IMG/VR virus record: IMGVR_UViG_3300000229_000002
Span: 1-35,571 of that record
Length of the DNA: 35,571 nt
Reading direction: 5' to 3' (one strand)
Source: a virus
The first letter of the stretch is position 1; the number at the start of each line of letters is the position of its first letter. The translations under genes and the position numbers were made by a program. Positions 6,251 to 21,531 of the stretch are shown piece after piece. The notes below the pieces were generated by a model. The model was not told where the DNA came from, did not search any database, and was given only the letters and a program-made list of their open reading frames with translations.

Positions 6251-6599
6251 ACCTACAAACAACCCAGGCGAAACCCACCGCATTAAGGTGGGGTGCGGCT
6301 GGTTATACATCACTATCTGTGACAGTGAGTATAAGGAAGTATTCCTTAAGCTAGGCAAGACAGGAGGATGTCCTGCGGCGTTTCTCCAAGCCGTAGGTAT
6401 GCTCTTCTCTAAGGCCTGGAGAGCCGGAGTTTCCTTAGAATCTATGGTTAAAAATTTACGAAGCATTGGCTGCCCCTACCCTAGCTGGCATGAAGGAGTT
6501 CAGATCCTTAGCTGCGTAGACGGCATAGCTCATGTACTTAAATCTTATTGCAAGGAGGAAAATAAAGATGACGATGCTCACGAAAGTGGACAGGGTTGA
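6240..6599 (+). CDS. Stand-alone TSCPD-domain protein, 119 aa
   Basis: The TSCPD domain is normally the C-terminal zinc-associated part of B12-dependent ribonucleotide reductase (NrdJ). Here GCGWLYITICDSEYKEVF, LGKTGGCPAAFLQAVGML, a basic-hydrophobic helix, GCPYP, and finally ILSCVDGIAHVL match that domain through its whole length, with conserved cysteines. No reductase catalytic domain is in the window. The protein may act as a separate regulator or electron-transfer partner for a host or split reductase. Copy 5 of the dispersed element lies inside the gene, written as Met-Val-Lys-Asn-Leu. It overlaps the preceding and following genes. Confidence 0.8.
   Translation: MSSRPTNNPGETHRIKVGCGWLYITICDSEYKEVFLKLGKTGGCPAAFLQAVGMLFSKAWRAGVSLESMVKNLRSIGCPYPSWHEGVQILSCVDGIAHVLKSYCKEENKDDDAHESGQG
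6446..6460. promoter_or_regulatory. Dispersed 15-bp element, copy 5
   Basis: GGTTAAAAATTTACG with CTAT before it, inside the TSCPD gene. It is a near-consensus copy despite lying in coding sequence. Confidence 0.65.
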
Positions 6600-6786
6600 A
6601 CTGGCAGTATGGATAGATAAACTAGAAGCTGCTATGTCTGCTGCATCAGCAGCTATAACAAACTTCTTCGCTGAGGAAGATAAAGAAGGCCGCCATAGAC
6701 TCTTGGAAGTAATGATGCACTCAAACGTCTTATGGGCAGAGCGCCCTATCGTTATCGAATCACTACTCACGGGGGAGGAGGAATGA
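6568..6786 (+). CDS. Small hypothetical protein, 72 aa
   Basis: The ATG at 6568 is chosen because AAGGAGG sits at a good distance upstream; in-frame codons back to 6532 lie inside the TSCPD gene. The protein is helical with an alanine-rich core (EAAMSAASAAITNFF) and an acidic C-terminus. No motif is recognised. Its stop overlaps the start of the ATPase gene (ATGA), so the two are coupled. Confidence 0.7.
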   Translation: MTMLTKVDRVELAVWIDKLEAAMSAASAAITNFFAEEDKEGRHRLLEVMMHSNVLWAERPIVIESLLTGEEE

Positions 6787-7658
6787 GTTACGATGTCCTT
6801 AATGATGTCAAGAAAGTCCGAGATTATTATGAGAGCGATCCGCTTCAGAAGCGATACTCCGCTCTCATTACAGGCGAAAGCGGGGCAGGCAAGACCTATC
6901 TCATCAGGACCTGCCGTCTCCCAGTTCACATTGACTCATTCGATCCGGGCGGAACAAAAGGGCTAAGGAAAGAGATTGCAGCCGGGAAGATAATCGCAGA
7001 CACAAGATGGGAGAATGAAAACCCTCTTGCCCCGGATCGCTTCGTCGAGTGGAAAAAAGAGTTTGAATACAGGATTAGGGTAGGCTACTTTGAGCACTTC
7101 GGAACATACGTGCTTGACTCAGCAACGTCGTGGGGCGACGCTGTTATGAACCAGCAACTCGATGCTGCCGGCCGTGCTGGCGAGGCGCCCAGGTTTACAA
7201 AAGATTATACACCGCAGAAGATAGCCATGATAAACGCTATCAAGCGCATGATGAACCTCCCATGTGACTTTATCCTCATCGGACATCTAAAGATGATAGA
7301 AGAGATCAGAGGAACTACTAAGGACGGAGAGCCTATAAAGACTATCAAGTATCGCTTTCTAACTACCGGTCAGGCCTCTGTAACTATCCCTATGCAGTTC
7401 GATGAGCTATATGTACTGAAGGGAAAGGACTCCTCAACTGGAGTTAAACGGGTACTCCTAACCGACGCTCAGGGACAGTATCAAGCTAGGTCTCGACTCA
7501 AAGCTGATGGAAAGCTAGCAGTCGAGGAGGAGCCTGACATTAAGGCTATCTTGAAAAAGATAGGCTTAAGGTGGGAGGATAAACCCTCCCTAAATATTCC
7601 AAGTGCAAAGGAGGAACCAAGGCAGCAAGCGGCAAATGGCAAAGTAAGTAAACATTAA
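6783..7658 (+). CDS. RecA-like P-loop ATPase (Sak4/AAA_24 type), 291 aa
   Basis: Probable phage recombination ATPase. Walker A is GESGAGKT at residues 31-38, and a Walker B-like hydrophobic strand ending in Asp (TYVLDSATSW) lies near residue 117. IGHLKMIEE (near 180) and a late arginine-rich region fit the RecA-core organisation seen in the phage AAA_24 and Sak4 families. The start at 6783 follows GGAGGAGG and overlaps the previous stop; an upstream in-frame ATG at 6732 lies within the preceding gene. The next gene looks like a ssDNA-binding partner, which matches the usual pairing of Sak4-like proteins with an SSB. Confidence 0.82.
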   Translation: MSYDVLNDVKKVRDYYESDPLQKRYSALITGESGAGKTYLIRTCRLPVHIDSFDPGGTKGLRKEIAAGKIIADTRWENENPLAPDRFVEWKKEFEYRIRVGYFEHFGTYVLDSATSWGDAVMNQQLDAAGRAGEAPRFTKDYTPQKIAMINAIKRMMNLPCDFILIGHLKMIEEIRGTTKDGEPIKTIKYRFLTTGQASVTIPMQFDELYVLKGKDSSTGVKRVLLTDAQGQYQARSRLKADGKLAVEEEPDIKAILKKIGLRWEDKPSLNIPSAKEEPRQQAANGKVSKH

Positions 7659-7683
7659 CATCTAACAAATAAAGGAGAGCATC

Positions 7684-8106
7684 ATGGCCTTAGTAGACTA
7701 CTCTGAACTGGAGCAGGAGATCTTGGATGCGCAGGAACCTACTGTCCTTCCAAAGGGAACGGAAGTACAAGTTCGGATCATTCAGGTCAGAACAGGAACA
7801 AGTGAAAAGAACGGTGCTGACTATATCATGCCTATCTATGAAGTCCTCGGGACCGGCATGGAGATGGTAAAGGAAGTCAGCGACTTCATGTGGATTCTTG
7901 ACAAGGAGGCTCTTACGGCCAAAGAATACGCTCGGGCCTTGGATCAGTTTAAGAGATTCTCCATGTGCTTCGGCGTCGATCTCACTCGGCCTATCGACTT
8001 CGACGAAGACCTCGTGGGGCTTCAGGGCTGGGTTATCTTAGGGTTGCGGAAGAGCGACGAATATGGTGAGCAGAACACCGTATCGAAGTACATTCTTCCT
8101 CGATAA
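7684..8106 (+). CDS. Probable ssDNA-binding/recombination partner protein, 140 aa
   Basis: The protein looks like the small beta-rich proteins (DUF669-like or SSB-like) found next to phage RecA-like ATPases. It opens with MALVDYSELEQEILDAQEPT, has a strand EVQVRIIQVRTG and a compact C-terminal strand pair (GLQGWVILGLRKSDEYGEQN). I see no canonical OB-fold signature strong enough to name it SSB. Evidence is mostly context and fold-like pattern. The start has AAAGGAGAG upstream, and the intergenic gap of 25 bases suggests one operon with the ATPase. Confidence 0.65.
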   Translation: MALVDYSELEQEILDAQEPTVLPKGTEVQVRIIQVRTGTSEKNGADYIMPIYEVLGTGMEMVKEVSDFMWILDKEALTAKEYARALDQFKRFSMCFGVDLTRPIDFDEDLVGLQGWVILGLRKSDEYGEQNTVSKYILPR

Positions 8107-8109
8107 CTA

Positions 8110-8124
8110 CGTAAAATTTTAACC
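8110..8124. promoter_or_regulatory. Dispersed 15-bp element, copy 6
   Basis: CGTAAAATTTTAACC, flanked by CTA and ATAG. It is identical to copy 11 when reverse-complemented. It lies between genes, directly before a strong hairpin. Confidence 0.7.
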
Positions 8125-8128
8125 ATAG

Positions 8129-8151
8129 GGGACGTGAGCAACTCACGTCCC
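8129..8151 (+). other. Strong 10-bp hairpin before gene at 8165
   Basis: GGGACGTGAG (8129-8138) and CTCACGTCCC (8142-8151) form a perfect stem with a three-base loop. No T-run follows on the plus strand. On the minus strand the stem is followed by the A/T-rich dispersed element, an arrangement also seen after the major capsid gene. It may stabilise or attenuate the mRNA. Confidence 0.65.
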
Positions 8152-8164
8152 TGAGGGAGATCTC

Positions 8165-8509
8165 ATGACAGACGATCAATTTCAGAAGGTTTGTAGGAAT
8201 CTATTCACGCATCGGATGAACATCATGAACGCTAAGGGGAAATCTAGGCTGGCCGGAACTCAAGACAGACTAATCATGTTCAAGAGATTGGCTGCCCTTG
8301 AGCAAAGGCCTCCTCAGGAGGTATGTATTTCCTTATGCGCCAAGCACTTTTCCGACCTCATAAATATATCTCAAGGAAAAGCCACAGCAGACCTGGGCTG
8401 CATCGTTGAATTAATCTCAGACATCCAGAACTATCTAGATCTGCTAAATGCTCTCTGGCAAGAACTAGCTAACAACCAAGGAGAACCTAATGGAGTCTGT
8501 TCAATCTGA
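8165..8509 (+). CDS. Hypothetical protein, 114 aa
   Basis: I recognise only a loose resemblance to uncharacterised phage proteins with a KH..S motif followed by a long helix ending in LNALW. A basic N-terminal half (residues 1-45) is followed by two helices. Residues CISLCAKHFSDLI (near 54-66) might form an active or metal site, but this is not established. The start has GGGAG upstream, and its end overlaps the dCMP deaminase start by 20 bases. Confidence 0.75.
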   Translation: MTDDQFQKVCRNLFTHRMNIMNAKGKSRLAGTQDRLIMFKRLAALEQRPPQEVCISLCAKHFSDLINISQGKATADLGCIVELISDIQNYLDLLNALWQELANNQGEPNGVCSI

Positions 8510-8948
8510 CAGATGGGACTCTTATTTTCTTTCTATCTGCGAGGCAGTAGCATCTAAGTCTCCCTGCCTGTCTCATCAGACAGGAGCCATTTTAGTGAGA
8601 GACAAATCTATCGTCTCCACCGGCTATAATGGTCCTTCTAGAGGCTTTCCTCACTGCCAAGATGAATGCCGCAGAAAGCGACTAGGCTATGAATCAGAAG
8701 AAAGATTGGACCTCTGCCCTGCGGTGCATGCAGAGATCAATTGCATAGCAAACGCTGCTCGCAACGGAGTGGTAACCGTAAACACCATACTGTACATGAA
8801 CTATATTATTCCCTGCAAAGATTGCATGATAGTTCTAGTCAACGCAGGGATCAGAGAGATAGTAGTCACGACAACCAAACTATACCATGGCATGTCTGAG
8901 GCAATAGCCAGGTACGGCAATATCTCAATAAGGAGCTTTCGCTCATGA
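8490..8948 (+). CDS. dCMP deaminase, 152 aa
   Basis: Converts dCMP to dUMP, feeding thymidylate synthesis during phage DNA replication. The zinc-dependent cytidine deaminase signature is complete: HAEINC with His80 and Glu82, and PCKDC with Cys109 and Cys112. The TGYNGPSRGFPHC segment (about residues 44-56) is typical of the dCMP deaminase/ComEB branch, and extra Cys/His residues (Cys26, His55, Cys60, Cys76) may hold a structural zinc. Length is normal for the family. No thymidylate synthase is in the window, so the host or another locus must supply that step. Its 3' end overlaps the epimerase-like gene by four bases. Confidence 0.93.
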   Translation: MESVQSDRWDSYFLSICEAVASKSPCLSHQTGAILVRDKSIVSTGYNGPSRGFPHCQDECRRKRLGYESEERLDLCPAVHAEINCIANAARNGVVTVNTILYMNYIIPCKDCMIVLVNAGIREIVVTTTKLYHGMSEAIARYGNISIRSFRS

Positions 8949-10057
8949 AAAGAGTTCTCATTTTAGGGATGGATGGCTATATTGGTTGGGCTCTTGCTAA
9001 TGAGTTAGCAGACAAAGGCTACTATGTATATGGAGCGGATAACTTCTGGCGAAGAGACGTAGCTGAGTCCCTTGTTCCTATTCCACTAAGGGAACGAGTG
9101 AACAAGCTGCCCATCTGTACATGCTGGCTGCAGAGCAATCCAACTGTTCTGCATGATCTCTTGTCTCAATCGCCGGATGCTATTGTACACTTAGCCGAAC
9201 AGCCCTCAGCTCCGTACTCTATGACTCACGACGGAGCCATCTACACTCAACGAAACAATGTGTTAGGAACATTGAATCTCTTGTTCCTAATGAAAAAACA
9301 CTGCCCGGAGGCTCATCTAATAAAGTTAGGAACAATGGGAGAGTATGGGACTCCCGATTGTACAATCCCTGAAGGGACAATTCCAAGCTCATGTCCTGAC
9401 ACTAAGTACCTCTCCTGTCCTATGCAGGGTCTAATGTTCCCTCGGGCTGGTAATTCCTTCTATCATCTATCGAAGGTGTTTGATTCTTTCAACATCAAGT
9501 TCGCCTGTGATACTTGGGGATTGCGAGCAACAGACATCATGCAGGGGATTGTCTTTGGCCTGGCTCACGGGACTCGCTTCGACTACGATGATGAATTTGG
9601 CACAGTTGTAAATCGTTTCTGTGCTCAAGCTCTTGCCGAAGTACCTCTCACAGTGTATGGCTCAGGTGAGCAGACAAGAGGATTTCTGCCTCTAACCGAC
9701 TCCATTAAGTGTATTCAACTAGCTATAGATAACCCTCCTGTAATGGGAGAATATCGGACCTTTAATCAACTAGCCTCTCTAATGTCAGTAAACGACTGTG
9801 CTGAGTTGATAACTGAGACAGCAAGGGATCTGGGAATAACGACTGAAACAGATCATATCTCCAATCCTCGCACTGAGAGAGAACATCACCTCTATACAGT
9901 AGAGGTTGATAATCTTCAAAGGCTAGGTTATTCCCCTAACCTTGACTTTGGGAAAGTCATCTACGACACCTTAGCAACTCTTCTTCCATTTAAATCTTCC
10001 ATTAACAAAGACTTAATCTATCCCCATATATTCTGGAGGCATCCTTATGTTAGGTGA
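8945..10057 (+). CDS. UDP-sulfoquinovose-synthase-like sugar-nucleotide enzyme, 370 aa
   Basis: An extended short-chain dehydrogenase that binds NAD and a nucleotide sugar. The N-terminus RVLILGMDGYIGWAL carries a Rossmann motif in the form G-x-D-G-Y-x-G seen in SQD1 (UDP-sulfoquinovose synthase) rather than the common G-A-x-G-F-I-G. More SQD1-like blocks follow in order: EQPSAPYSM, YTQRNNVLGTLN, KLGTMGEYGTP with Thr130, and FYHLSK with Tyr173 and Lys177 as the expected catalytic pair, then WGLRATD. Plant SQD1 has Arg where this protein has Pro in EQxSAPYSM (recalled, not checked), so sulfite use is uncertain. Probable role: altering host surface glycolipid or glycan. It sits between dCMP deaminase and small replication genes, overlapping both. 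Confidence 0.85.
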   Translation: MKRVLILGMDGYIGWALANELADKGYYVYGADNFWRRDVAESLVPIPLRERVNKLPICTCWLQSNPTVLHDLLSQSPDAIVHLAEQPSAPYSMTHDGAIYTQRNNVLGTLNLLFLMKKHCPEAHLIKLGTMGEYGTPDCTIPEGTIPSSCPDTKYLSCPMQGLMFPRAGNSFYHLSKVFDSFNIKFACDTWGLRATDIMQGIVFGLAHGTRFDYDDEFGTVVNRFCAQALAEVPLTVYGSGEQTRGFLPLTDSIKCIQLAIDNPPVMGEYRTFNQLASLMSVNDCAELITETARDLGITTETDHISNPRTEREHHLYTVEVDNLQRLGYSPNLDFGKVIYDTLATLLPFKSSINKDLIYPHIFWRHPYVR

Positions 10058-10304
10058 TTACAGACCCAGGTTCTCCTTCGACATTACGGAGGAACAGCAG
10101 GAGCGAGCGTTTAGGCTCCTAAACCTCCACGGCATGCGAAGAGCTATTATGTCTCTTCTCCTCGACGAGGTCCTTGATCTCATCGAAGAGCACGGCCTTG
10201 TTATTGTAGGTATTCTTATAGAAAGAGCTGCCAGACCACGGGATATAATCCCTGCGTTGAAGGAAGCTCAGATGAGAGGATCCAACGATGGCGACAATAG
10301 ATGA
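10047..10304 (+). CDS. Hypothetical protein, 85 aa
   Basis: Not recognised. The N-terminus (MLGDYRPRFSFDITEEQQER) leads into helices with DEVLDLIEEHGLVIVGILIE, a regular amphipathic pattern, then a basic end. It starts 11 bases inside the preceding gene with GGAGG upstream and overlaps the next gene by 17 bases. Small proteins of this shape are common in phage replication operons. Confidence 0.75.
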   Translation: MLGDYRPRFSFDITEEQQERAFRLLNLHGMRRAIMSLLLDEVLDLIEEHGLVIVGILIERAARPRDIIPALKEAQMRGSNDGDNR

Positions 10305-10503
10305 TTTCGACTTGCAGTCTATCACTAACATATCTCAGGACGAAGCATTAGAGCTTCTTCGCCAACTTAGGCTAGCTCGCAGAACATCTACTAAATTAAC
10401 CAAGATACGAGCACAGGCAAAGGCAAAGAAAGAGGCGAAAGATCCTACAAAAAATCTAACACCAGAACAAGCAGCTGAGCTGCTCAAAATGCTAGGAGGT
10501 TGA
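10288..10503 (+). CDS. Small basic helical protein, 71 aa
   Basis: Not recognised. It has an acidic N-terminal helix, a basic Lys/Arg/Ala-rich middle and a C-terminal helix LTPEQAAELLKMLGG. That last pattern resembles the C-termini of the early proteins at 2485 and 3020. Coding overlaps the preceding gene and ends three bases before the methyltransferase start. Confidence 0.72.
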   Translation: MATIDDFDLQSITNISQDEALELLRQLRLARRTSTKLTKIRAQAKAKKEAKDPTKNLTPEQAAELLKMLGG

Positions 10504-10506
10504 CCA

Positions 10507-11841
10507 ATGACTATTGATGTCGGTGTAGTGGCTAAAGTCCCTACTACCTCTATTATCTGTGAAGGCCGTACACGTCAAGATCTTGGTGACTTAGACGGTC
10601 AAGAACTGTCTATGCGTAAGATAGGCATGGCTCAGCCTTTGGCTGCCATGGATCTAGGCAACGGCCTATATAAACTCCTTGCCGGCGGCCGACGCTTAGC
10701 AATTCTTCAGCGCACTGGCACACCAGAGGTAACGATAAGAATATACCCACCTACTCTATCCCCGCTTGAGCAGAAGGCCGTTGAGTTAGCCGAGAATTTC
10801 TGGCGGAAAGACATGGAGTTTCATGAGTACGATAAACTCATAAAGGAAATCCATGACTTAGAGGTCGAGATCCACGGCAGAAAAATGTCCACAGCTCCTG
10901 ATGCTCCCGGCTGGACTCAGGACAAAACAGCTGAGCTCATGGGCATTAGTAGGCCAGGAGTAACCAATGCACTAAAGCGAGCAGCTGTTAGAGAGGTCTT
11001 ACCCGATGTATTTGCGTCTTGTAAAACACAGAAGGACGCAAACAAGATCCTTGACAAACTAACCGAATCAGCAATTAAGGAAGCGATTGCCAAGAAGATA
11101 GAACAATCTATGCCAACGGGCTCTGCTATCCAACGACTATCTCAGGCTTACATTCTCGAGGACTTCTTCACCGGAGTGGCTAAGATCCCTGATGCCTCAG
11201 TACATATGGTAGAGATAGATCCTCCTTATGGAATCGACCTGCCGTCGATAAAGAACCAAAGTGGACCTACTGGATCGTCTTACCTCGGTGATTATAACGA
11301 GATACCAGCAGAAAACTACGTAGCATTCATATCCAAAGTATTAGCCGAGTGCTATCGAGTAATGACCGAGCACTCGTGGCTAGTCTGCTGGTTCGGTCCG
11401 GAACCTTGGGCTGAGGTATTCTATCAGCTCATCACGGCCGTAGGATTCAAGACCACACGGCTAACGGGCTTTTGGCCTAAGGGATCTGGACAGGCAAAGA
11501 ATCCTACTATTAGGTTAGCTAACTCAGAGGAACGCTTCTATTACGCCTCAAAGGGATTGCCGGCCCTCGCTAAACCTGGACGCACTAACGAGTTTCGATA
11601 TGCTCCTATGCCAGCCCAGAAGAAGATTCATCCTACAGAACGCCCAGTAGAGTTAATGAAGGACATTTACTCTACCTTTACTTGGGAAGGATCTCGTTTG
11701 ATGATCCCTTTTCTTGGCTCAGGCTCAGGACTCATAGCTGCAAACGAACTAAACATTAGCGCCTTCGGATTCGAGCTTTCCAGCGCCTATAGAGACGCAT
11801 TCTTGCTCAAGGTCAATGCTCTATACGGGATTGAACTATGA
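10507..11841 (+). CDS. ParB-like/DNA methyltransferase fusion, 444 aa
   Basis: Two domains are visible. Residues about 1-200 look like a ParB/Srx nuclease-fold domain (AGGRRLAIL near residue 71) with a helix-turn-helix (TAELMGISRPGVTNALKRA near 135-155). Residues about 210-444 are an S-adenosylmethionine-dependent amino-methyltransferase of the beta class: catalytic DPPYG at 238-242 comes before the cofactor loop PFLGSGSG at 401-408, and a late FGFE strand follows. No restriction enzyme is adjacent. It probably modifies phage DNA to evade host restriction, or marks sites for replication or packaging. GGAGG precedes the ATG. Its stop overlaps the start of the 38-residue membrane protein. Confidence 0.9.
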   Translation: MTIDVGVVAKVPTTSIICEGRTRQDLGDLDGQELSMRKIGMAQPLAAMDLGNGLYKLLAGGRRLAILQRTGTPEVTIRIYPPTLSPLEQKAVELAENFWRKDMEFHEYDKLIKEIHDLEVEIHGRKMSTAPDAPGWTQDKTAELMGISRPGVTNALKRAAVREVLPDVFASCKTQKDANKILDKLTESAIKEAIAKKIEQSMPTGSAIQRLSQAYILEDFFTGVAKIPDASVHMVEIDPPYGIDLPSIKNQSGPTGSSYLGDYNEIPAENYVAFISKVLAECYRVMTEHSWLVCWFGPEPWAEVFYQLITAVGFKTTRLTGFWPKGSGQAKNPTIRLANSEERFYYASKGLPALAKPGRTNEFRYAPMPAQKKIHPTERPVELMKDIYSTFTWEGSRLMIPFLGSGSGLIAANELNISAFGFELSSAYRDAFLLKVNALYGIEL

Positions 11842-12137: not shown

Positions 12138-14636
12138 ATGCGCAATACATACGTTCCTCCCCGCGGAAATCCTGCTGCTCGAATAGCCATAGTTGGTGAA
12201 CAGCCTGGTTATACCGAGATTCGTTGGAGACCTCCAACACCTTTTGTCGGCCCGGCCGGCGCAGTCCTTGACTCCTGTCTCCAACTCGCAGGAATTATCA
12301 GGAGCGAGTGTTGGCTAACAAACGTGATTAAGGATCTTGATAAACCTCTTGCCGCCTACATAAACATGGATAGTTCTACCATCACTCCTGATGGTCAAGA
12401 ATATATCAAACAGCTCAGGGACGAACTTAGCAAACTCAAGCCCAAGGTCGCCGTAGCCCTTGGCAACGTACCATTGCTGGCTTTATGTTCTCGCACAGGC
12501 ATTACTAAGTGGAGAGGCTCTATCCTCGAGTCCACCCTAGTCCCCGGGCTGAAGGTTATTCCATCTATCCATCCAGCAACGGTTATTCCTCCTAAAAGTG
12601 TCTTTAGCAACAAACCTCTAATCACATTCGATCTCAAACGAGCTCTAGAAGAATCTCAATTCCCTGAGATTCGCAGAATAAATCGCAAGATAGAGATCAA
12701 GCCCTCATTTGAAAAGGTTATTGCTACTCTCAAATGGCTCCATACACGAGGGCTTGAGGGTAACATTCTCGACTTCGATATCGAAGTGATCAATGAAGAA
12801 CTAGACTGCTTTGCATTTGCATGGTCTCCTTATGAATCAATCTGCATTCCACTACGTTATCAAGGAGACTACTTTCCCATCGAGCAGGAACTAGAAATCA
12901 TGAGGTGGGTAGCAACGATCTTGGAAGATCCTCAGATTGCTATCCGGGGCGCCAATATTATCTTTGACCTCCAGTTCATGATGAAGAAGTATGGCATCTG
13001 CACGCACGGAGAAATCCACTGCACGCAGATAGCACAGAAAATCCTGACTCCTGACTATCCTGCAGGCCTTGACTTTGTAACAACTCTTCACACCGACATT
13101 CCTTATTACAAAGCTGACGGCAAGAAATGGATGAAGACAGGAGTAGGCTCCTGGGAGACCTGGTGGACCTATAATGGTATGGATACTATCTCAACTGCCG
13201 ATGCTCATCCTAAGCAAATCGAGGATCTAAAAGTCCAGGGTAATATGGAAACCTACGAGCGTCAGCGAAAGATAATTCCTCCTCTACTATACATGGCTCA
13301 CAAGGGGATTAGAGTCGACGTCCAAGGAATCATTAAGCAGAAAGAAAAGGAAGTCCTCGAGTGTGAACAACTCACCGAGCAATTCAAGAGCATCGTGGGC
13401 TACGACATTAATCCTAACTCGCCGCAACAGATAGCTGATTACTTCTATAAAAAACTAGGGAATTCTCCTTACAAGAAACGCACGCAATCAGGTTGGACCG
13501 TGACTACTGATGTAGATGCTATCAAGCGTCTAGCACGCAAAGGAATAGAGGCCGCTAAGGTCCTCCTTCGCATACGAAAGCTTGCTAAGCGTATTGGGAC
13601 TTATCTGAACATAAGGAAAATTGACCCTGACGGACGCTACAGATCATCTTATAAACCCGTAGGTGCTGAAACAGGGCGTTTATCATCTGGGGAGACCATC
13701 TTTGGCACTGGCGGAAATCAGCAGAATTGGCCGCACGACCTCCTACAATATTTTCTATTCGACGAAGGCTATGTAGGCTATTCCTTCGACCTAAGTCAAG
13801 CTGAGAATCGCATAGTAGCTTATGTCGGTGGAGTAGTGCAGATGATAGAGGCCTTCGAGAATAACATCTACTATGATCTACATCGACTTACGGCTGCCCT
13901 TATATTCAACAAACCGCTTAATGAAATATCTGATAAACCTGGTTCCTCTGATCTTGGTGACGGAGAGCATAGTGAACGAGATTGGGGTAAACGAGGAAAT
14001 CATTCTCTTAACTATGACCTCGGTTATAAGTCGTTTGCCATCAAGTTCGAAATGCCTGAGACCGAAGCAAAGTGGATAGTAGACCAATATCATCGGGTAT
14101 ATCCTGGCGTCAGGCAGAACTATCACTCTATGATAATCAATCAGCTCCGCACTACTCGCACGCTGGAGAACTGCTATGGCCGCAAAAGACTCTTCATGGG
14201 GCCGGTAGTTCCCAATCCTCCATCGGTGCCTCTAGCAGCCTGTCATCAGACTTACAAAGATGGCTATGCTCAGATTCCTCAATCTACAGTCGCTGATAAG
14301 ACCAACGAGGATGGAGTAGAATATATCTACTATAACCAAGATCCTCTATTCCATCCTGTTGAACTCCTAACCCAAATGCATGATAGCATAGTCTTTCAAA
14401 TACCTACGACCGTTCCCTGGATAGACCATGCTAAGATCCTCACCCTCATCAAGCAATCGCTGGAGAAAACCATAACTTGGCACGGAACTCCTGTGCCTAT
14501 TCCAGCTGACTTAGTCATAGGAATCAATATGTTCAAAGATCAATCTAAGGAAATAAAGGCGAAGTCATTTCCATCTAATCTCAATCAACTCGCGCAGATC
14601 CTGGCTACTTACTATGACGAACTCAAGCGAAAATAG
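12138..14636 (+). CDS. Uracil-DNA glycosylase-like/family A DNA polymerase fusion, 832 aa
   Basis: The phage replicative polymerase with an N-terminal UDG-superfamily domain, an arrangement known from SPO1-type phage polymerases. UDG-like motifs are GEQPG (20-24), PFVGPAG (35-41) and SIHPAT (His145). A DEDDy 3'-5' exonuclease follows: DFDIE with Asp214/Glu216, GANIIFDLQF near 280, and YNGMD near 345. Polymerase motif A is FDLSQAENR with Asp551, motif B is RDWGKRGNHSLNYDLGY with Arg614 and Lys618, and motif C is MHDS with His748-Asp749. All catalytic carboxylates expected for polymerase and exonuclease are visible, so both should be active. The UDG domain may be active or a uracil sensor; I see no clear iron-sulfur cysteine set. 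The start abuts the upstream stop. Confidence 0.93.
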   Translation: MRNTYVPPRGNPAARIAIVGEQPGYTEIRWRPPTPFVGPAGAVLDSCLQLAGIIRSECWLTNVIKDLDKPLAAYINMDSSTITPDGQEYIKQLRDELSKLKPKVAVALGNVPLLALCSRTGITKWRGSILESTLVPGLKVIPSIHPATVIPPKSVFSNKPLITFDLKRALEESQFPEIRRINRKIEIKPSFEKVIATLKWLHTRGLEGNILDFDIEVINEELDCFAFAWSPYESICIPLRYQGDYFPIEQELEIMRWVATILEDPQIAIRGANIIFDLQFMMKKYGICTHGEIHCTQIAQKILTPDYPAGLDFVTTLHTDIPYYKADGKKWMKTGVGSWETWWTYNGMDTISTADAHPKQIEDLKVQGNMETYERQRKIIPPLLYMAHKGIRVDVQGIIKQKEKEVLECEQLTEQFKSIVGYDINPNSPQQIADYFYKKLGNSPYKKRTQSGWTVTTDVDAIKRLARKGIEAAKVLLRIRKLAKRIGTYLNIRKIDPDGRYRSSYKPVGAETGRLSSGETIFGTGGNQQNWPHDLLQYFLFDEGYVGYSFDLSQAENRIVAYVGGVVQMIEAFENNIYYDLHRLTAALIFNKPLNEISDKPGSSDLGDGEHSERDWGKRGNHSLNYDLGYKSFAIKFEMPETEAKWIVDQYHRVYPGVRQNYHSMIINQLRTTRTLENCYGRKRLFMGPVVPNPPSVPLAACHQTYKDGYAQIPQSTVADKTNEDGVEYIYYNQDPLFHPVELLTQMHDSIVFQIPTTVPWIDHAKILTLIKQSLEKTITWHGTPVPIPADLVIGINMFKDQSKEIKAKSFPSNLNQLAQILATYYDELKRK

Positions 14637-15837
14637 ACGATTAGACAACTGGATCCAGGGATTCATAGACTACACCGACAACAACGAGGCTCCGTACCTG
14701 TTCAAGAAGTGGACTGCTATCTCATGTGTAGCGGCCGCGCTCCAACGAAAGTGTCGCCTCGAGTGGGGAGTAGGACTTACGTGGTACCCTAACATGTACA
14801 TAGTCCTAGTCGGTCCTCCTTCTGCCCGCAAGGGAACTGCGATGGGACCTGGGCTAGAGTTATTAGAGGCAATAGGGACTATTAAGCTAGCAGCGAATGC
14901 TACTAGTATCCAAGCTCTAATAAAAAGATTAAAGGAAACTAATCACAACGACGTTGATCTAGAGACAGGAGACATGGTCTTTCACTCTAGCCTAACTGTC
15001 TTTTCTAAAGAATTCACTGTGTTCCTTGGCTATCAGAACAATCCGATGATAGCTGCCCTGTGTGATTGGTTCGATTGCGATAGACGATGGAAGTATGAGA
15101 CTATATCTCGGCAAACGGAAGAGATCATTGGAGTCTGGGTGAATCTATTCGGAGCAACTACTCCTGATCTCATTCGCATGAGTATGCCAATCGAGATGAT
15201 AGGCGGAGGTCTGACAAGCAGAACCATCTATGTCGTGGAAGGAAAGAAGGGAAAAAGCGTGGCCTGTCCTGTAATAACAGACAGAGAGCTCCAACTAAAG
15301 AACGATCTAATATATGATCTGGAAAAAATAGCTTTGCTATCTGGAAACTACAAATACACAGATAACTTCGTCGACAAGTGGACAGAGTTCTATCACATGA
15401 ACGATAACTTTCCTCCTGACCTGGGAAAGAACTTTGATGGATACTTAGGCCGCCGAGCTCTTCATGTTATGAAGTTAGCCATGATCTCATGTGCCGCGAG
15501 AAACAAGTCAGTTGGTCAAAATTTAACCATAGATTCAAGAGACCTTACCTGGGCCATCTCCACGATTGAGGAAGTAGAGATAAACATGAGATATGTATTC
15601 AAGGGCGTTGGCAGAAATCCCTACGCCGACGTAATGCATCAGGCCCTTACCTGGCTCTGTAGCTTAGAAAGATCTGAGATCTCACTAAGGGAATTCTACA
15701 TTCGTTACCAGGATGATCTGGATAGATTGACCCTAGACCGACTCATTCAATCGCTAGAGATAGCAGGAAAGATAAAGAGATCCTACAGGCCAGGGCAGCC
15801 TGAATCACTTCTGATCCTCTCTTCGGAGCTTACCTAA
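14614..15837 (+). CDS. P-loop replication ATPase (DUF3987/helicase-like), 407 aa
   Basis: Probably the replicative helicase or helicase-like ATPase of the phage. Walker A is written GPPSARKGT (67-75), a variant in which Arg replaces the usual Gly before Lys; similar variants occur in phage DUF3987-type ATPases. A conserved WTAISCVAAALQRKCRLEWG block precedes it, and a hydrophobic-acidic strand (SLTVFSKEF) near 130 may be Walker B. A C-terminal helical domain follows. It starts 23 bases inside the polymerase gene without a strong ribosome binding site, so translational coupling is likely. Its last 33 bases overlap head-on with the end of the 1908-residue virion gene. Copy 8 of the dispersed element lies within it. 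Confidence 0.78.
   Translation: MTNSSENRRLDNWIQGFIDYTDNNEAPYLFKKWTAISCVAAALQRKCRLEWGVGLTWYPNMYIVLVGPPSARKGTAMGPGLELLEAIGTIKLAANATSIQALIKRLKETNHNDVDLETGDMVFHSSLTVFSKEFTVFLGYQNNPMIAALCDWFDCDRRWKYETISRQTEEIIGVWVNLFGATTPDLIRMSMPIEMIGGGLTSRTIYVVEGKKGKSVACPVITDRELQLKNDLIYDLEKIALLSGNYKYTDNFVDKWTEFYHMNDNFPPDLGKNFDGYLGRRALHVMKLAMISCAARNKSVGQNLTIDSRDLTWAISTIEEVEINMRYVFKGVGRNPYADVMHQALTWLCSLERSEISLREFYIRYQDDLDRLTLDRLIQSLEIAGKIKRSYRPGQPESLLILSSELT
15514..15528. promoter_or_regulatory. Dispersed 15-bp element, copy 8
   Basis: GGTCAAAATTTAACC, followed by ATAG, inside the P-loop ATPase gene and written as Gly-Gln-Asn-Leu-Thr. It differs from copy 9 at one end base only. Confidence 0.6.
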
Positions 15838-18800
15838 CTCTTCGAAGAATCCCTCGCCTATGAAATCAGCAACCATCAATCTACCTAGTTCCTTATTAAG
15901 ACTCTTCCGTTCCTCGGGAGAAGCTTCTGTCTTATATCGCTCGTGGAAGTCTGCAGCTTTAAGCTTATCACTCTTGCCGAGCATTTCCTTCCACACATCT
16001 CTATGCTTCATTGTCTCTATCATACTCAACTTAATAGTATCATTTAGGAACCTATCTAAGGCCTCGGGATCCTCCTTACCGACCTTGGCGTAGAAATCTT
16101 TAAGCTTCTCTCTAACATCTCCGCCTCTTGCTTTCTCTTCCATAATTAGATTGAACTCATCTCGGCGAAGATAATTCTTCTCATCCTCCCTGGCCTCCTG
16201 CCTCCATCTAGCTTCATCGCCCATCTGACGATAAGCCGCAGGCATAGTTAGACCAAACCATCTATTAAATCCGGGAACACTAGTTATCACTTCCTGCCAT
16301 GTACGATCGAGGAGTTTCTTAGGCAATGAGCTTAGTAATCCTTCGTAAGCTCTACTAAACACCCAGATAAACTCATTGTTTCTAGGTATTATCTCAGAAG
16401 AAGCTCCTTCGAGTCTTTTGGGAGAGAGCCCTGTTATTCCTCCTATGTGCTTAGCAAGCTGCGATACATTAGGATCATACATTCCTTCTACTTTGCTCAT
16501 AGGAAACCAAAAGGACTTTCCTCCTAACTCCTTAAATATAGCATCATTCTTCCAGGATGAGTGGTTAGTAACGTAACTAACAACGCCTGCTATGGCTGGA
16601 GGTAATGTCATTCGAACAGCGGTGCTCTGCGTTAATGAACCTGCTATGGCCTCATAGTTGGGACGTATAGTAGTCATCCCAGTTTCGTACATGAGCTTAT
16701 GAGTAAGCCCGGAGAATAAGTTATAGAAGAACATAGGCCCGCCAGCACCAGGAATCTTCATATACCATGAGCGTTCTTGCCCCTTCGAGCCTATGAAATT
16801 TAGATAGTTTGGAAAGAAAGGAATAACGGCATTCCTCCTTCTTTTATCATCAGGAATCTCACTCCATGCTTTAGGATCATAGAGTAAACTCAAGGCAGTA
16901 ATTCCAACGGCAGCAGCTCCTATATTAGCAACTCTTATTGCGAAGTCCTTCGGTCTCTCTACCGGAGCTCTCCAGAAGGTCCTGTCGGCGACGTAGTTAG
17001 CTCCTAGGAAGACAATAAATCTATCTAATGCCCTAGTCAGCCATCCTGTCTGTCCATACGGCATGTTTTCTCTAGCTACATGAGTAGCCAGTCGAAGAAT
17101 CTCTGACTCTGGCCTGGCTAACTCTTTCTTCCACAATTCCTCTCTAGTGATTCCTAGCTCTCCTGCCTTCTGCTCAACCACTCTATCCATAATAGCCATG
17201 CGGACTAATAACTCCATATTCTTTCCGTGAGCAGATAGAATATCGAGTACCTTAGCTCCCTTCCCAGGCCTGTGCGTTAGACCTGTAATGTGCGACTGAC
17301 GTTGAGTTATGAAAGACATCAGGCCTCCGTACTTCCCATAAGCATCAAGCATAGGCCCTGCGTGCCATAGGTCAGAAGCTACATTTGCAAAGTTGTTTTT
17401 TAGCTCAGCAAGATACTTGGGAAAGAACGGACTATATATAGCTTCTGCCTTAGCCTGAGTTCCCAGCTCATTTTTATTCTTGAATATTCTAGGGGAAAAG
17501 AACGTATGCATGACGTCAATAGGGAAGCCTGCCATCGTAGCCCAAACTGCTGAAGATCCGACAACAAGAGCCCTAACCAGATCAACTGCAAGCAACTTTG
17601 TAGCCCAAAGAAACCTATTACTCATATCATGGCCAACGGTATTCACTTGATGCGCGAAATCAGGATGCAGCCAAATAGGCTGACGGCTTGGATAGTTTGT
17701 CTCTGCACTCTCCACGCCCTCAAGGGTCCAGACGCTATCTCTTATCCATCCCTTAGGCCTCTTGCCTCCTAGACCCTTATGCCAGACCATACCGTTATCT
17801 GGGAATTCAGTTGCAAAGTTCATCATGGCCTGTTTAGCCCTTTGATTAGCTGCCCGACCAGCTAGACGTCGTGCTACTTCATTATAGACTATCCTCTGAT
17901 CTACCTCAGCTAGTTCCGCTCCTCCTCCTTTAAGCGGATCGATCCCAGAATCAAAATTAGTGGTCTTTATGCCTCCTACCTTATTCTTCGTGATACTATC
18001 ATATATATCCGCGTAGGTGTCCAGATACTTCATTTTAGAATAATCATGACTTTTCAGTGCCTTAGCTTCCTCAGTACTTATTATTCCAGTCTCAGCAAGA
18101 AACTTATCTATCCAATGCCTGACGTGATCGAACATTAGATTACTACGTTCTTTGATTATCTTAAACTCCTCATCGGACAAATTATGTAGCTCTTTGAACC
18201 GTGCCACGTTTGCTATTGTATCTTCTAGCTTGATTTTATTAGGAGCCTTCCACTTAGGCTTGTAGTTCCAGATGTCTATGAATCTCATATACATATGATA
18301 GCGATCTAACATTTTGGCTAAGTTGTCACTAAGACCCCTATACACCTCTCGTTCCATCTGACGATATAATGCTTCACCGTATCTAGGGCCTCCCGGTATA
18401 GACCAGATAGTTGCTACCAACTTCTGCCCAGCTTCTCCAAAGTGCTTTAACAGAGTCTTATAGACCCCTCCTGCTTGATCATGAATCATCTCGCTGACGA
18501 ATTTCTTCTGAGAATTCCACCACTTAGAAAAGCTTCTTTCCTTAAAGGCCTCCATCTGATCATAGCGACGATCAGTGCGTTCTGCTCCTTTTAGCGCTAG
18601 AGCCGCTTCAGGCTGTAACGTAGGGTCTTTGAATCTCTTCCTATACTCCTGAGTCCACTTACCAGAAGCATCCATTGCTCTCTTTATTGAGTCCAATCTG
18701 GCGGCTCTTCTAGTCTCGAATGTCTGTAGGTTATCCCACTTTCTTGTATTAGAATTAAGGCCCAAGACACTCCACGAATATTTTCCGTTAGGAAGCTTTT

Positions 18801-21531
18801 GTCCTCTTGATAACTTAAAGTCCTCATGCGATGAGGGGGCTCCTTCCTCAATGCCAAAGAGAGTTCTAAAGGCCTTGCCTATCTGATGAATAGGAAGACC
18901 ACTGTATAGCTCGATTCCTCCTCCTTCTTCTTTCATTATATAGTCAATTATTTCTTTGTCGCTAAGCTCATCTAATGACTTTCCATAGTACTTCTCTATA
19001 GCAGTCTGAGTAAGTGTTTCCTCCGTAACCTTGGCTTCCTCCTCAGCTTTTTTCCAAGATTCCTCAAGAGGAGCTCCCATCTCAGCTTCCTCTATTTCCT
19101 CTACTCCTTCTACTTCCTTCACCTCTCCTGTTCCTTCCACTTCTGCTTTCGGTTCAGGCGGCGTGGGTTTTTGTTCAATTCTTTCGTTAATATTTGACGG
19201 AGTGGGTTCCACTACTTCTACTTTTGCTTTCCCCTTTCTTCTTATCCTCCTAGCCCACTCAGCACTTTGCTTAGTAATTTTCCCTATTAGCTCTACTTCA
19301 GTCTTAGACCCTAGCATATCGAGCATCGCTCTCTCGTTTGCAGGATCTTCCACTCTCGCTGCTATCTCACTCAGCAAATTTCTGACCGCAGCAATAGGAA
19401 CATCATTATCTCCATCCAACCACCTATTCACATTATTAAGAGCCTCAGCATGAAGGGTTACGAGATCTCTGGGAGGTCTTTCCTCAAACGCTTTCGCGTG
19501 AGTCAGAGTTACATTTGGATCTTCTTCCCTAAAGTAGCTCATATGTGGATCTGTTTCAGGCAAAGTTCTCTTAGGTGGAGTCTTGATAACTTTAGGTTTA
19601 GGCGCAGGTTTAGGCTCAGGTTCAGGTTCAACCTCAGGCTCCTTAGGTTCCTCAACCTCCTTCCTTTTAGCATCTCTAGCCCTAGCTCGTTCAACAGCGG
19701 AAAGAGGCTTGGTCTCAACCTCAACCTTCTTTTCCTCGGCCTTAGCCTCCTCGGCTTTAGCTTCCTCGACCTCAGCCTCTTCAGCCTTGGCCTCTAGTTC
19801 CTCAGTTCTCTTAACCTCCGCTTCCCCTACTACCTGCACATTATCTACAATCGGCTTAGTAGGCTCGAATTTTTCTACTACTATTTTAGTCGCTTCTGCC
19901 TCAACGTCTTTGGCAGCATTTAATACCTCAAGTTTCCTCCAGGCCTCGTCCATGTTAGGCCCACGAGAATACCTAAGGTATCTCTGTATCTTGCCTCCTA
20001 ACGCATGTATACTTTTCTCTAGGCCTCTCACTCCGCCTCGATGAAACTTAGCCATTACAAAGAGACCAGTTGCCTCGCCGAGGAATCTCAGAAACCCCTC
20101 TGCATTAGGTGAGGGATACGGAGATTTATGCATCTCATCTGCAAGACCTTGAAACCAAGCATTGGTCATAGTCAAGGGCAGCATTACTGCCTCACCGACG
20201 GCTTCCGAAGGACCTCCCTCAACAGACTCTAGTCCCATAAGTCCACGTAAGTAATTAGCTGCTTCTCTAGGGGAGTTCAGAACCCTCTTCATCACCTGCT
20301 TACCAGGCTCTGTGAACTCCGCTAGCTCCTGGAACTTATCCTTCATTATGTTGTAAGCGTCTAATACAGATGTCTCCCCTTTGGCCATCTTTATCCAAAT
20401 ATTAGGACGAAGGTGCTCTATAGCTACACTGGTAGCTCCTATCAGTCCTAGACCAAAGGTACCTATGTCCCAACCTAGTTCGGCCGCCCCAACCACAGCG
20501 CTGTAGGGATCCCTCAAGATCCTAGTAACGTCTTTACCTAAGCCTTCTAATCTACCTAGTGCTTGAGTCCATGTAGTATTAGGTCTAGGACCTACAATAG
20601 GCTGTCCTTCTTCGTCTAGACGATTCCCTAACTCATCATATCCTCCTGGGGCCGGCAGCCCAGGCAAAGGATAGCCTGGCACACTCTGCATTAATCCTAA
20701 GAGACTCTCATGATATTGAGTAGTGAGATTCTTCAAAGGCGGCGGCGGTTTCTTACCCATAGAAATAGCTGATTCAGTAGGCAACTCTGCCGGTTGGGCT
20801 AAAGGATCCTGTCCATAGAGAATATTAGCATAGTCTGAATCTGATGCCGGCGTACGTAACTCTTTGGCGGGAGTGGGAGCAAGAGCAGGAGCAGGCATAG
20901 GAACATTAAGTCCGAGGCTCTCCCTTACTGCCTTAGTTACAGCATCTTCTTCCTCAACAGCTCCTTGAGCAACAGGCCCTGCTTGATTTCCAAGACTTTC
21001 CCTCACCGCCTTGGTTATGTCGTCGTCTTCGTCTGCAACTCTATTTGGCACCTCAGCAGCATGCGCTGCAGATGGAGACAGTATGCCCAGTAAATCGTTA
21101 CCTAGATTATTAAGAATGCCCTTCACATATTTCTGGGTCTCAGCAAAAGGAGGAATACCTTTATGCTTGCGTACATTCTTCGGACCTGCGTTGTATGCTG
21201 CTAAAGCTAAGGCTCTATCCCCCTTAAATTGTGTGAGCATATCTTTGTAATACTTCACACCTCCAAAGATACTCTCTCGAGGATCAAAAGGATTCTTTAC
21301 TCCAAGAGCCTTAGCTGTCTCAGGCATTAGTTGCATGAGCCCTTTGGCTCCTTTAGGCGAAGTCGCTCCAACATTACCTCCACTTTCACGTTGAAGAATC
21401 TGTTGTAGCACAGGGAGCTCACTAGGAATCCCATGAAACTCAGCAGCCTCTCTGAGCAAATTACTATTATTCTCCGAACGCTCCATCGACTTCATCATTT
21501 CCTGTACTGCTATACTTATATCATTGTCCAA
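15805..21531 (-). CDS. Giant virion/ejection protein with N-terminal lytic transglycosylase domain, 1908 aa
   Basis: Likely delivered with the DNA to cut peptidoglycan and help form a channel, like the transglycosylase-bearing internal protein gp16 of T7 in role. Residues about 35-150 are an SLT domain: LQRESGG with catalytic Glu49, GAKGLMQLMPETA, and ALAAYNAGP. Then come two copies of a DDxITKAVRESLG motif (N-terminal residues 2-11 look like a third), hydrophobic segments near 345-370, a long Glu/Ala/Lys/Pro-rich linker (~570-840), and a ~1050-residue C-terminal region with hydrophobic stretches near 1305-1335 and 1535. The start is TTG at 21531, with GGAG at proper spacing and 11 bases of overlap with the upstream gene. 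The C-terminal coding end overlaps the opposing left arm. Confidence 0.85.
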   Translation of the reverse strand: MDNDISIAVQEMMKSMERSENNSNLLREAAEFHGIPSELPVLQQILQRESGGNVGATSPKGAKGLMQLMPETAKALGVKNPFDPRESIFGGVKYYKDMLTQFKGDRALALAAYNAGPKNVRKHKGIPPFAETQKYVKGILNNLGNDLLGILSPSAAHAAEVPNRVADEDDDITKAVRESLGNQAGPVAQGAVEEEDAVTKAVRESLGLNVPMPAPALAPTPAKELRTPASDSDYANILYGQDPLAQPAELPTESAISMGKKPPPPLKNLTTQYHESLLGLMQSVPGYPLPGLPAPGGYDELGNRLDEEGQPIVGPRPNTTWTQALGRLEGLGKDVTRILRDPYSAVVGAAELGWDIGTFGLGLIGATSVAIEHLRPNIWIKMAKGETSVLDAYNIMKDKFQELAEFTEPGKQVMKRVLNSPREAANYLRGLMGLESVEGGPSEAVGEAVMLPLTMTNAWFQGLADEMHKSPYPSPNAEGFLRFLGEATGLFVMAKFHRGGVRGLEKSIHALGGKIQRYLRYSRGPNMDEAWRKLEVLNAAKDVEAEATKIVVEKFEPTKPIVDNVQVVGEAEVKRTEELEAKAEEAEVEEAKAEEAKAEEKKVEVETKPLSAVERARARDAKRKEVEEPKEPEVEPEPEPKPAPKPKVIKTPPKRTLPETDPHMSYFREEDPNVTLTHAKAFEERPPRDLVTLHAEALNNVNRWLDGDNDVPIAAVRNLLSEIAARVEDPANERAMLDMLGSKTEVELIGKITKQSAEWARRIRRKGKAKVEVVEPTPSNINERIEQKPTPPEPKAEVEGTGEVKEVEGVEEIEEAEMGAPLEESWKKAEEEAKVTEETLTQTAIEKYYGKSLDELSDKEIIDYIMKEEGGGIELYSGLPIHQIGKAFRTLFGIEEGAPSSHEDFKLSRGQKLPNGKYSWSVLGLNSNTRKWDNLQTFETRRAARLDSIKRAMDASGKWTQEYRKRFKDPTLQPEAALALKGAERTDRRYDQMEAFKERSFSKWWNSQKKFVSEMIHDQAGGVYKTLLKHFGEAGQKLVATIWSIPGGPRYGEALYRQMEREVYRGLSDNLAKMLDRYHMYMRFIDIWNYKPKWKAPNKIKLEDTIANVARFKELHNLSDEEFKIIKERSNLMFDHVRHWIDKFLAETGIISTEEAKALKSHDYSKMKYLDTYADIYDSITKNKVGGIKTTNFDSGIDPLKGGGAELAEVDQRIVYNEVARRLAGRAANQRAKQAMMNFATEFPDNGMVWHKGLGGKRPKGWIRDSVWTLEGVESAETNYPSRQPIWLHPDFAHQVNTVGHDMSNRFLWATKLLAVDLVRALVVGSSAVWATMAGFPIDVMHTFFSPRIFKNKNELGTQAKAEAIYSPFFPKYLAELKNNFANVASDLWHAGPMLDAYGKYGGLMSFITQRQSHITGLTHRPGKGAKVLDILSAHGKNMELLVRMAIMDRVVEQKAGELGITREELWKKELARPESEILRLATHVARENMPYGQTGWLTRALDRFIVFLGANYVADRTFWRAPVERPKDFAIRVANIGAAAVGITALSLLYDPKAWSEIPDDKRRRNAVIPFFPNYLNFIGSKGQERSWYMKIPGAGGPMFFYNLFSGLTHKLMYETGMTTIRPNYEAIAGSLTQSTAVRMTLPPAIAGVVSYVTNHSSWKNDAIFKELGGKSFWFPMSKVEGMYDPNVSQLAKHIGGITGLSPKRLEGASSEIIPRNNEFIWVFSRAYEGLLSSLPKKLLDRTWQEVITSVPGFNRWFGLTMPAAYRQMGDEARWRQEAREDEKNYLRRDEFNLIMEEKARGGDVREKLKDFYAKVGKEDPEALDRFLNDTIKLSMIETMKHRDVWKEMLGKSDKLKAADFHERYKTEASPEERKSLNKELGRLMVADFIGEGFFEELGKLRREDQK

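Follow-up and report, generated by a model that had tools for sequence, protein, structure and literature searches.

A phage-encoded gene at positions 8945-10057 (plus strand) of the IMG/VR virus record IMGVR_UViG_3300000229_000002 is predicted, on the basis of sequence, profile, tree and structure model, to specify an NAD-dependent nucleotide-sugar enzyme of 370 amino acids that falls in a widespread subfamily of the SQD1 family, referred to here as P101 (Pro at position 101, SQD1 numbering). Since related phages pair this SQD1-like gene with a glycosyltransferase (GT) of a protein-glycosylating type, an unusual sugar is probably put on protein. We infer substrate, product and acceptor, and consider the chances about even that a modified UDP-sugar, perhaps derived from UDP-HexNAc, is made for phage-directed protein O-glycosylation. 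The P101 subfamily, the fixed slot of the phage gene and its partner GT are new here. The whole record of 35,571 nt (35.6 kb) was analyzed and is called the window below.

Assignment to the SQD1 family

The window encodes a terminase (large subunit, TerL, at 33070-34608 on the minus strand, profile match), a portal, a major head protein and a DNA-replication module, and its source is a virus of bacteria. The reading frame of the SQD1-like gene has zero internal stops. It is preceded by an AAGGAG ribosome-binding site (8930-8935, plus strand, read directly) located 9 nt 5' of the ATG, and it overlaps the upstream dCMP deaminase gene by 4 nt and the downstream ORF, which starts at 10047, by 11 nt. 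The earlier note had read four SQD1-type blocks in this protein, and all of them were found in the claimed order on the plus strand, namely GMDGYIGW with the GxxGxxG NAD-binding turn (residues 8-15, 8966-8989), EQPSAPYSM (residues 85-93, 9197-9223, from the sequence alignment), GTMGEYGTP (residues 129-137, 9329-9355, aligned with SQD1 and Agl3) and YHLSK (residues 173-177, 9461-9475). The SDR triad Thr145/Tyr182/Lys186 of SQD1 is present as Thr130, Tyr173 and Lys177, the last two being the predicted catalytic residues of YHLSK, alongside the GxxGxxG motif in the form GMDGYIG. The third block also contains Met131, as well as Glu133 and Tyr134. This Glu-Tyr pair of the MGEYG segment corresponds to Glu147 and Tyr148 of Agl3, which have a role in dehydration (PMC4388408).

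Pfam placed the protein in the general Epimerase family only. The NCBI equivalog model for UDP-sulfoquinovose synthase, NF041015, matched it with 374.7 bits (E 4.8e-112), which is below the model's cut-off of 575 bits, while the galE profile gave 36 bits (E 2.9e-9) against a cut-off of 262. In a phmmer search of the PDB the top match was SQD1 (1qrr, E 1.8e-86, residues 1-366), and the first non-SQD1 entry followed at 6e-12; the similarity greatly exceeds what chance would give. A structure prediction had been proposed in the earlier note as a check; the AlphaFold model, built from 42 sequences with two plasmid rows left out of the input, had a pLDDT of 92.0 and a pTM of 0.92, and among solved structures it was closest to SQD1 (E 9.1e-44, TM 0.93; next family 1.7e-22). 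The protein is thus predicted to be an SQD1-family enzyme of the extended-SDR type. Profile, PDB sequence and structure-model matches agree with the original view of a phage-encoded member of this family as opposed to a common epimerase, and the profile scores and structure-model matches exclude another epimerase family as its home.

Residue 101 and the phylogeny of the family

The codon at 9203-9205 specifies Pro87 of the window protein, which aligns with Arg101 of SQD1 and Agl3. In an alignment of 229 sequences with an assigned group, the groups being defined by residue 101 itself, this position carries Arg, or in one case Lys, throughout the 46 sequences of two Arg groups (20 SQD1/SqdB-like and 26 Sulfolobales-like), and 182 of the 183 sequences outside them have Pro. 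Because of that definition, the weight of the comparison rests on the absence of any other column that tracks residue 101. Column 101 is the sole non-conservative column separating the two clades with characterized UDP-sulfoquinovose synthases from the rest; a search for other specificity columns yielded only Leu/Ile172, a conservative change. Agl3, in which the block reads EQRSAP according to the printed primers, is inactive as the R101A mutant (PMC4388408), so that the mechanism of P101 enzymes would not simply be that of Agl3. Every other residue mutated in the Agl3 work is retained in the window protein.

In the tree, Arg101 occurs at two places, around SQD1/SqdB and around the Sulfolobales, both nested among Pro proteins and corresponding to two changes. 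A single clade of all Arg enzymes was rejected (AU p 0.0024, tree with column 101 masked). The window protein lies on the archaeal side, apart from both Arg clades and within a phage-only clade (97% SH-aLRT). The phylogeny proposed in the earlier note therefore placed it in the SQD1 family and in no clade with a characterized member. The suggestion that the Arg-to-Pro change may matter was supported by the alignment and by the Agl3 mutant.

It was also found that phage locus L078 (7791-9206) carries Arg101 and falls on the SQD1 side of the tree, the single exception among phages; a class-III aminotransferase gene follows its SQD1-like gene and a large phage DNA polymerase is encoded further on. 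For a true UDP-sulfoquinovose synthase of phages, L078 is the more promising candidate.

With regard to distribution, no close relatives were found among 50,697 sequenced phages, only distant epimerases with 22-24% identity, while relatives are encoded at 117 IMG/VR candidate loci. In genomes of bacteria and archaea, 440 candidate stretches matched the P101-type pattern, and P101 SQD1-like genes occur in Nitrososphaerota, Alphaproteobacteria, Acidobacteriota and others. As the pattern used for the genome collection included Pro101, its 80 cellular loci are uninformative on P101 frequency, which can be read from the Thermoproteota and Alphaproteobacteria samples. Close phage homologues are under purifying selection, with dN/dS of 0.07-0.22 in pairs other than the window gene and its nearest (partial) relative, L239, for which synonymous sites are saturated.

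No assayed P101 member was found in the literature. A true UDP-sulfoquinovose synthase, acting on UDP-glucose and sulfite despite Pro101 and supplying sulfoquinovose to a glycan, protein or lipid, is conceivable but appears unlikely. SQD1 and Agl3 are the nearest characterized enzymes, and all Agl3 residues mutated apart from Arg101 are kept. Moreover, thaumarchaeal Pro101 proteins (L199, L202 and L128) exceed the NF041015 cut-off, with 618.7 bits in an archaeal P101 example. The nearest host-assigned relative is the Desulfofustis phage MD01, whose module lacks the SQD1-like gene; sulfate reducers produce sulfite. However, the one residue that sets the proven clades apart non-conservatively is essential in Agl3, and NF041015 gives the window protein 375 bits where its cut-off is 575. 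Furthermore, one acidobacterial genome (G006) keeps a copy of each type, Arg101 and Pro101 (L170, L174), which speaks for different functions. For the UDP-sulfoquinovose synthase name given to the three thaumarchaeal proteins, no supporting assay was found. No sulfolipid synthase gene was found next to the window gene. Membership of the SQD1 family, as read in the earlier note, is thus supported, whereas the description as a UDP-sulfoquinovose-synthase-like sulfolipid enzyme is not supported in that form, given the missing Arg101, the score below the equivalog cut-off and the place in a phage-only clade. In view of the residue and the score, the name UDP-sulfoquinovose synthase should be withheld from the window protein.

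A fixed slot in the replication module

In about 45 phage contigs the SQD1-like gene was found at the same place of the DNA-replication module, after genes for a ligase, a PD-(D/E)XK nuclease, Sak4, a 140-aa protein and dCMP deaminase, and before those for an 85-aa protein, a ParB-methyltransferase, PolA, a primase and, on the opposite strand, a large virion protein. In the window, on the plus strand, the Sak4-like ATPase is encoded at 6732-7658 (profile match), the 140-aa conserved ORF, in an SSB-like position of the module, at 7684-8106 (conserved neighborhood), and the dCMP deaminase, the direct upstream neighbor, at 8490-8948 (profile match). The slot ends with c4, an 85-aa conserved ORF at 10047-10304 (conserved neighborhood), and a fusion of a ParB-like domain with a DNA methyltransferase, the downstream border of the conserved module, at 10507-11841 (profile match). 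This fusion is conserved across the lineage. Elsewhere in the window, 12138-14636 encodes a DNA polymerase of family A whose N-terminal domain is of the uracil-DNA-glycosylase type, and 15805-21531 a virion protein of 1908 aa with a lytic transglycosylase domain at its N terminus; a short ORF of repeated YKLQ units at the left contig end (26-223) resembles simple repeat sequence.

Sak4 served as the lineage marker for a scan that was blind to the SQD1-like gene and in which loci with a complete slot were counted. The gene was present in 20 and absent from 24 such loci. Where it is absent, the dCMP deaminase gene mostly abuts c4 (-4 to -11 nt) with clean junctions. The Sak4 tree requires at least 12 switches between presence and absence, and starred branches force 6 of these. 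Given the fixed slot and the repeated switches, the SQD1-like gene is an accessory gene, gained and lost at a single site. A functional tie to the dCMP deaminase was ruled out, since the latter is retained in phages without the SQD1-like gene.

The partner glycosyltransferase of related phages

One GT family was found in all 17 lineage carriers of at least 42 kb, with the membership of divergent GTs checked, and in none of the five non-carriers of at least 42 kb from the SQD1-blind scan, one of which has an unrelated 704-aa GT; such records are complete-looking by length only. In mapped relatives the GT gene is located between the TerS-like and TerL genes. The window stops past TerL; the interval between TerL and TerS, which carries the GT in relatives, is missing from it, and no GT was found in the window itself. 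Perfect mutual dependence of the two genes was rejected, as the GT occurs without the SQD1-like gene in records G621, G631 and G632, and the dependence is therefore one-way. Independent contrasts all pointed in the same direction (5/5, and 3/3 on starred branches); their small number precludes significance, with p 0.25 for the starred branches and about 0.06 at best for the full set.

The modeled GT (pLDDT 88.8) is predicted to have the GT-A catalytic fold of polypeptide GalNAc-transferases (GT27), with a Z of 26.5 and an rmsd of 3.2 over 279 residues aligned with GalNAc-T2, and a Z of 19.8 for the next family. The DxH metal motif, D97-S98-H99 (DSH), is invariant in 26 sequences. With about 335 aa the protein comprises the catalytic part only; the C-terminal ricin-type lectin domain is absent, and according to the alignment WGGGD stands in place of WGGE, the glutamate being absent. 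Polypeptide GalNAc-transferases use UDP-HexNAc and act on Ser/Thr of polypeptides. Additional genes accompany the GT in single relatives: a sulfotransferase-like ORF (PF03567, 24.9 bits) directly 5' of the GalNAc-transferase-like gene in L231 (884-1495, record G603), and a second, unrelated NAD-epimerase adjoining the GT in L324 (5424-6200). In still other relatives, the region between TerS and TerL holds a second GT.

Genomic context in other phages and in cells

Outside this lineage, the SQD1-like gene keeps different company. It is found directly 3' of the major capsid gene in another phage branch (L029, L061, L064), and in further phage lineages (L004, L066, L053) it adjoins GTs between capsid and tail genes. 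Locus L005 belongs to a phage contig that also encodes a terminase and a portal. Its SQD1-like protein is closely related to the window enzyme (55-59% identity), and the neighboring genes encode a NeuB-like synthase, a NeuC UDP-GlcNAc 2-epimerase (237.7 bits, cut-off 235.9) and a cytidylyltransferase. Together with the SQD1-like gene (6544-11375), this set amounts to a sialic-acid-like cassette in a phage.

Among 64 cellular P101 genes, 18 have a NeuB-like neighbor, 14 a NeuC and 16 a cytidylyltransferase, and in Thalassospira all three types of gene are adjacent to the SQD1-like gene. In an unbiased alphaproteobacterial sample, some stretches of which had an SQD1-like gene that escaped ORF calling, Neu genes were near 3 of 10 P101 and 0 of 10 R101 genes, a difference that is suggestive only. 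From the Neu-type neighbors it would follow that UDP-HexNAc is a likely substrate. Taken as a whole, the genomic context favors protein glycans over lipid.

In line with the original proposal, the sugar might instead be placed on the host surface, on polysaccharide or lipid, where it would block superinfection or alter receptors. Many cellular P101 genes do lie within surface-polysaccharide clusters, and the TerS-TerL stretch of some relatives holds the further GTs, sulfotransferase-like ORF and epimerase mentioned above, in one case beside a beta-helix protein. We nevertheless find this proposal improbable, as the GT fold indicates polypeptide acceptors, no flippase, Wzx/Wzy-type or GtrA-type gene is named in the window, and other lineages keep the SQD1-like gene in head-tail operons. 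It is very improbable that the enzyme is a plain 4-epimerase or 4,6-dehydratase leaving C6 of a UDP-sugar unsubstituted: the extended-SDR fold is common to epimerases, but the SQD1-specific blocks, including the MGEYG segment, are retained and epimerase similarity is marginal. Finally, a role in phage DNA modification, to which only the place in the replication module near dCMP deaminase and methyltransferase genes would lend itself, can practically be dismissed, since both of these genes persist in phages without the SQD1-like gene, no hydroxymethylase or base-glucosyltransferase is named in the window, and elsewhere the gene sits beside capsid genes.

Proposed function

For phage-directed protein O-glycosylation, the retained residues and the parallel with Agl3 suggest the following course. 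Bound NAD+ would oxidize C4 of a UDP-hexose, which may be UDP-HexNAc instead of UDP-glucose. Dehydration across C5-C6 would come next, followed by re-reduction of either the 5,6-ene itself or the sugar substituted at C6. The phage GT would transfer the resulting sugar to Ser/Thr residues, most likely in a virion protein; the GT of the window phage would lie in the unassembled TerL-TerS stretch. Virion proteins appear to be the likeliest acceptor in view of the place of the gene in other lineages and of virion glycosylation in mycobacteriophages.

A bolder extension, which we regard as improbable, is that P101 enzymes form a separate catalytic subfamily converting UDP-HexNAc to an amino sugar modified at C6, either sulfonated or with a 5,6 double bond. 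In cells this sugar would serve sialic-acid-like synthesis and in phages a virion-decorating mucin-type O-glycosyltransferase, Arg101 having been gained twice, each time with UDP-sulfoquinovose synthesis. The SQD1 branch in question is common in bacteria, archaea and phages and is partly annotated as UDP-sulfoquinovose synthase, without the residue that marks the proven clades. If another sugar is made, many annotations and inferences on sulfolipid and sulfoquinovose would be wrong, and residue 101 would be a testable specificity switch. The pairing of the SQD1-like enzyme with a GalNAc-transferase-like protein would, for its part, constitute a self-made protein O-glycosylation system of the phage.

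Comparison with known systems

The window protein resembles Arabidopsis SQD1 (1qrr, 1i24) and bacterial SqdB in fold, NAD motif, catalytic Thr/Tyr/Lys and MGEYG segment. It differs from them in having Pro in place of Arg101, about 40% identity, a position in a different clade and no sulfolipid synthase alongside. With the cellular P101 genes it shares Pro101 and all other active-site residues, although those are cellular and many of them reside in NeuB/NeuC/cytidylyltransferase operons. A putative UDP-sulfoquinovose synthase has been reported earlier in a virus of the Cariaco Basin (PMC7785012); that virus is Mu-like, and the available part of the report neither discusses residue 101 nor describes a partner GT.

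The partner GT is similar to the GT27 polypeptide GalNAc-transferases in its predicted catalytic fold (Z 26.5 over 279 residues) and in the DxH motif, and differs from them in its low identity (less than 20%), the lack of a lectin domain and WGGG-D for WGGE. Phage-encoded GTs, as proposed here, are known to modify capsid and tail proteins of mycobacteriophages (Freeman et al., 2023, cited in PMC12363180), and the accessible portion of the citing article draws no link to an SQD1-like gene. Agl3, the UDP-sulfoquinovose synthase of protein N-glycosylation in Sulfolobus acidocaldarius (PMC4388408), lies on the same side of the tree as the phage enzyme. It requires Arg101 where the phage protein has Pro, but its role in protein glycans makes it the closest functional parallel to the phage enzyme.
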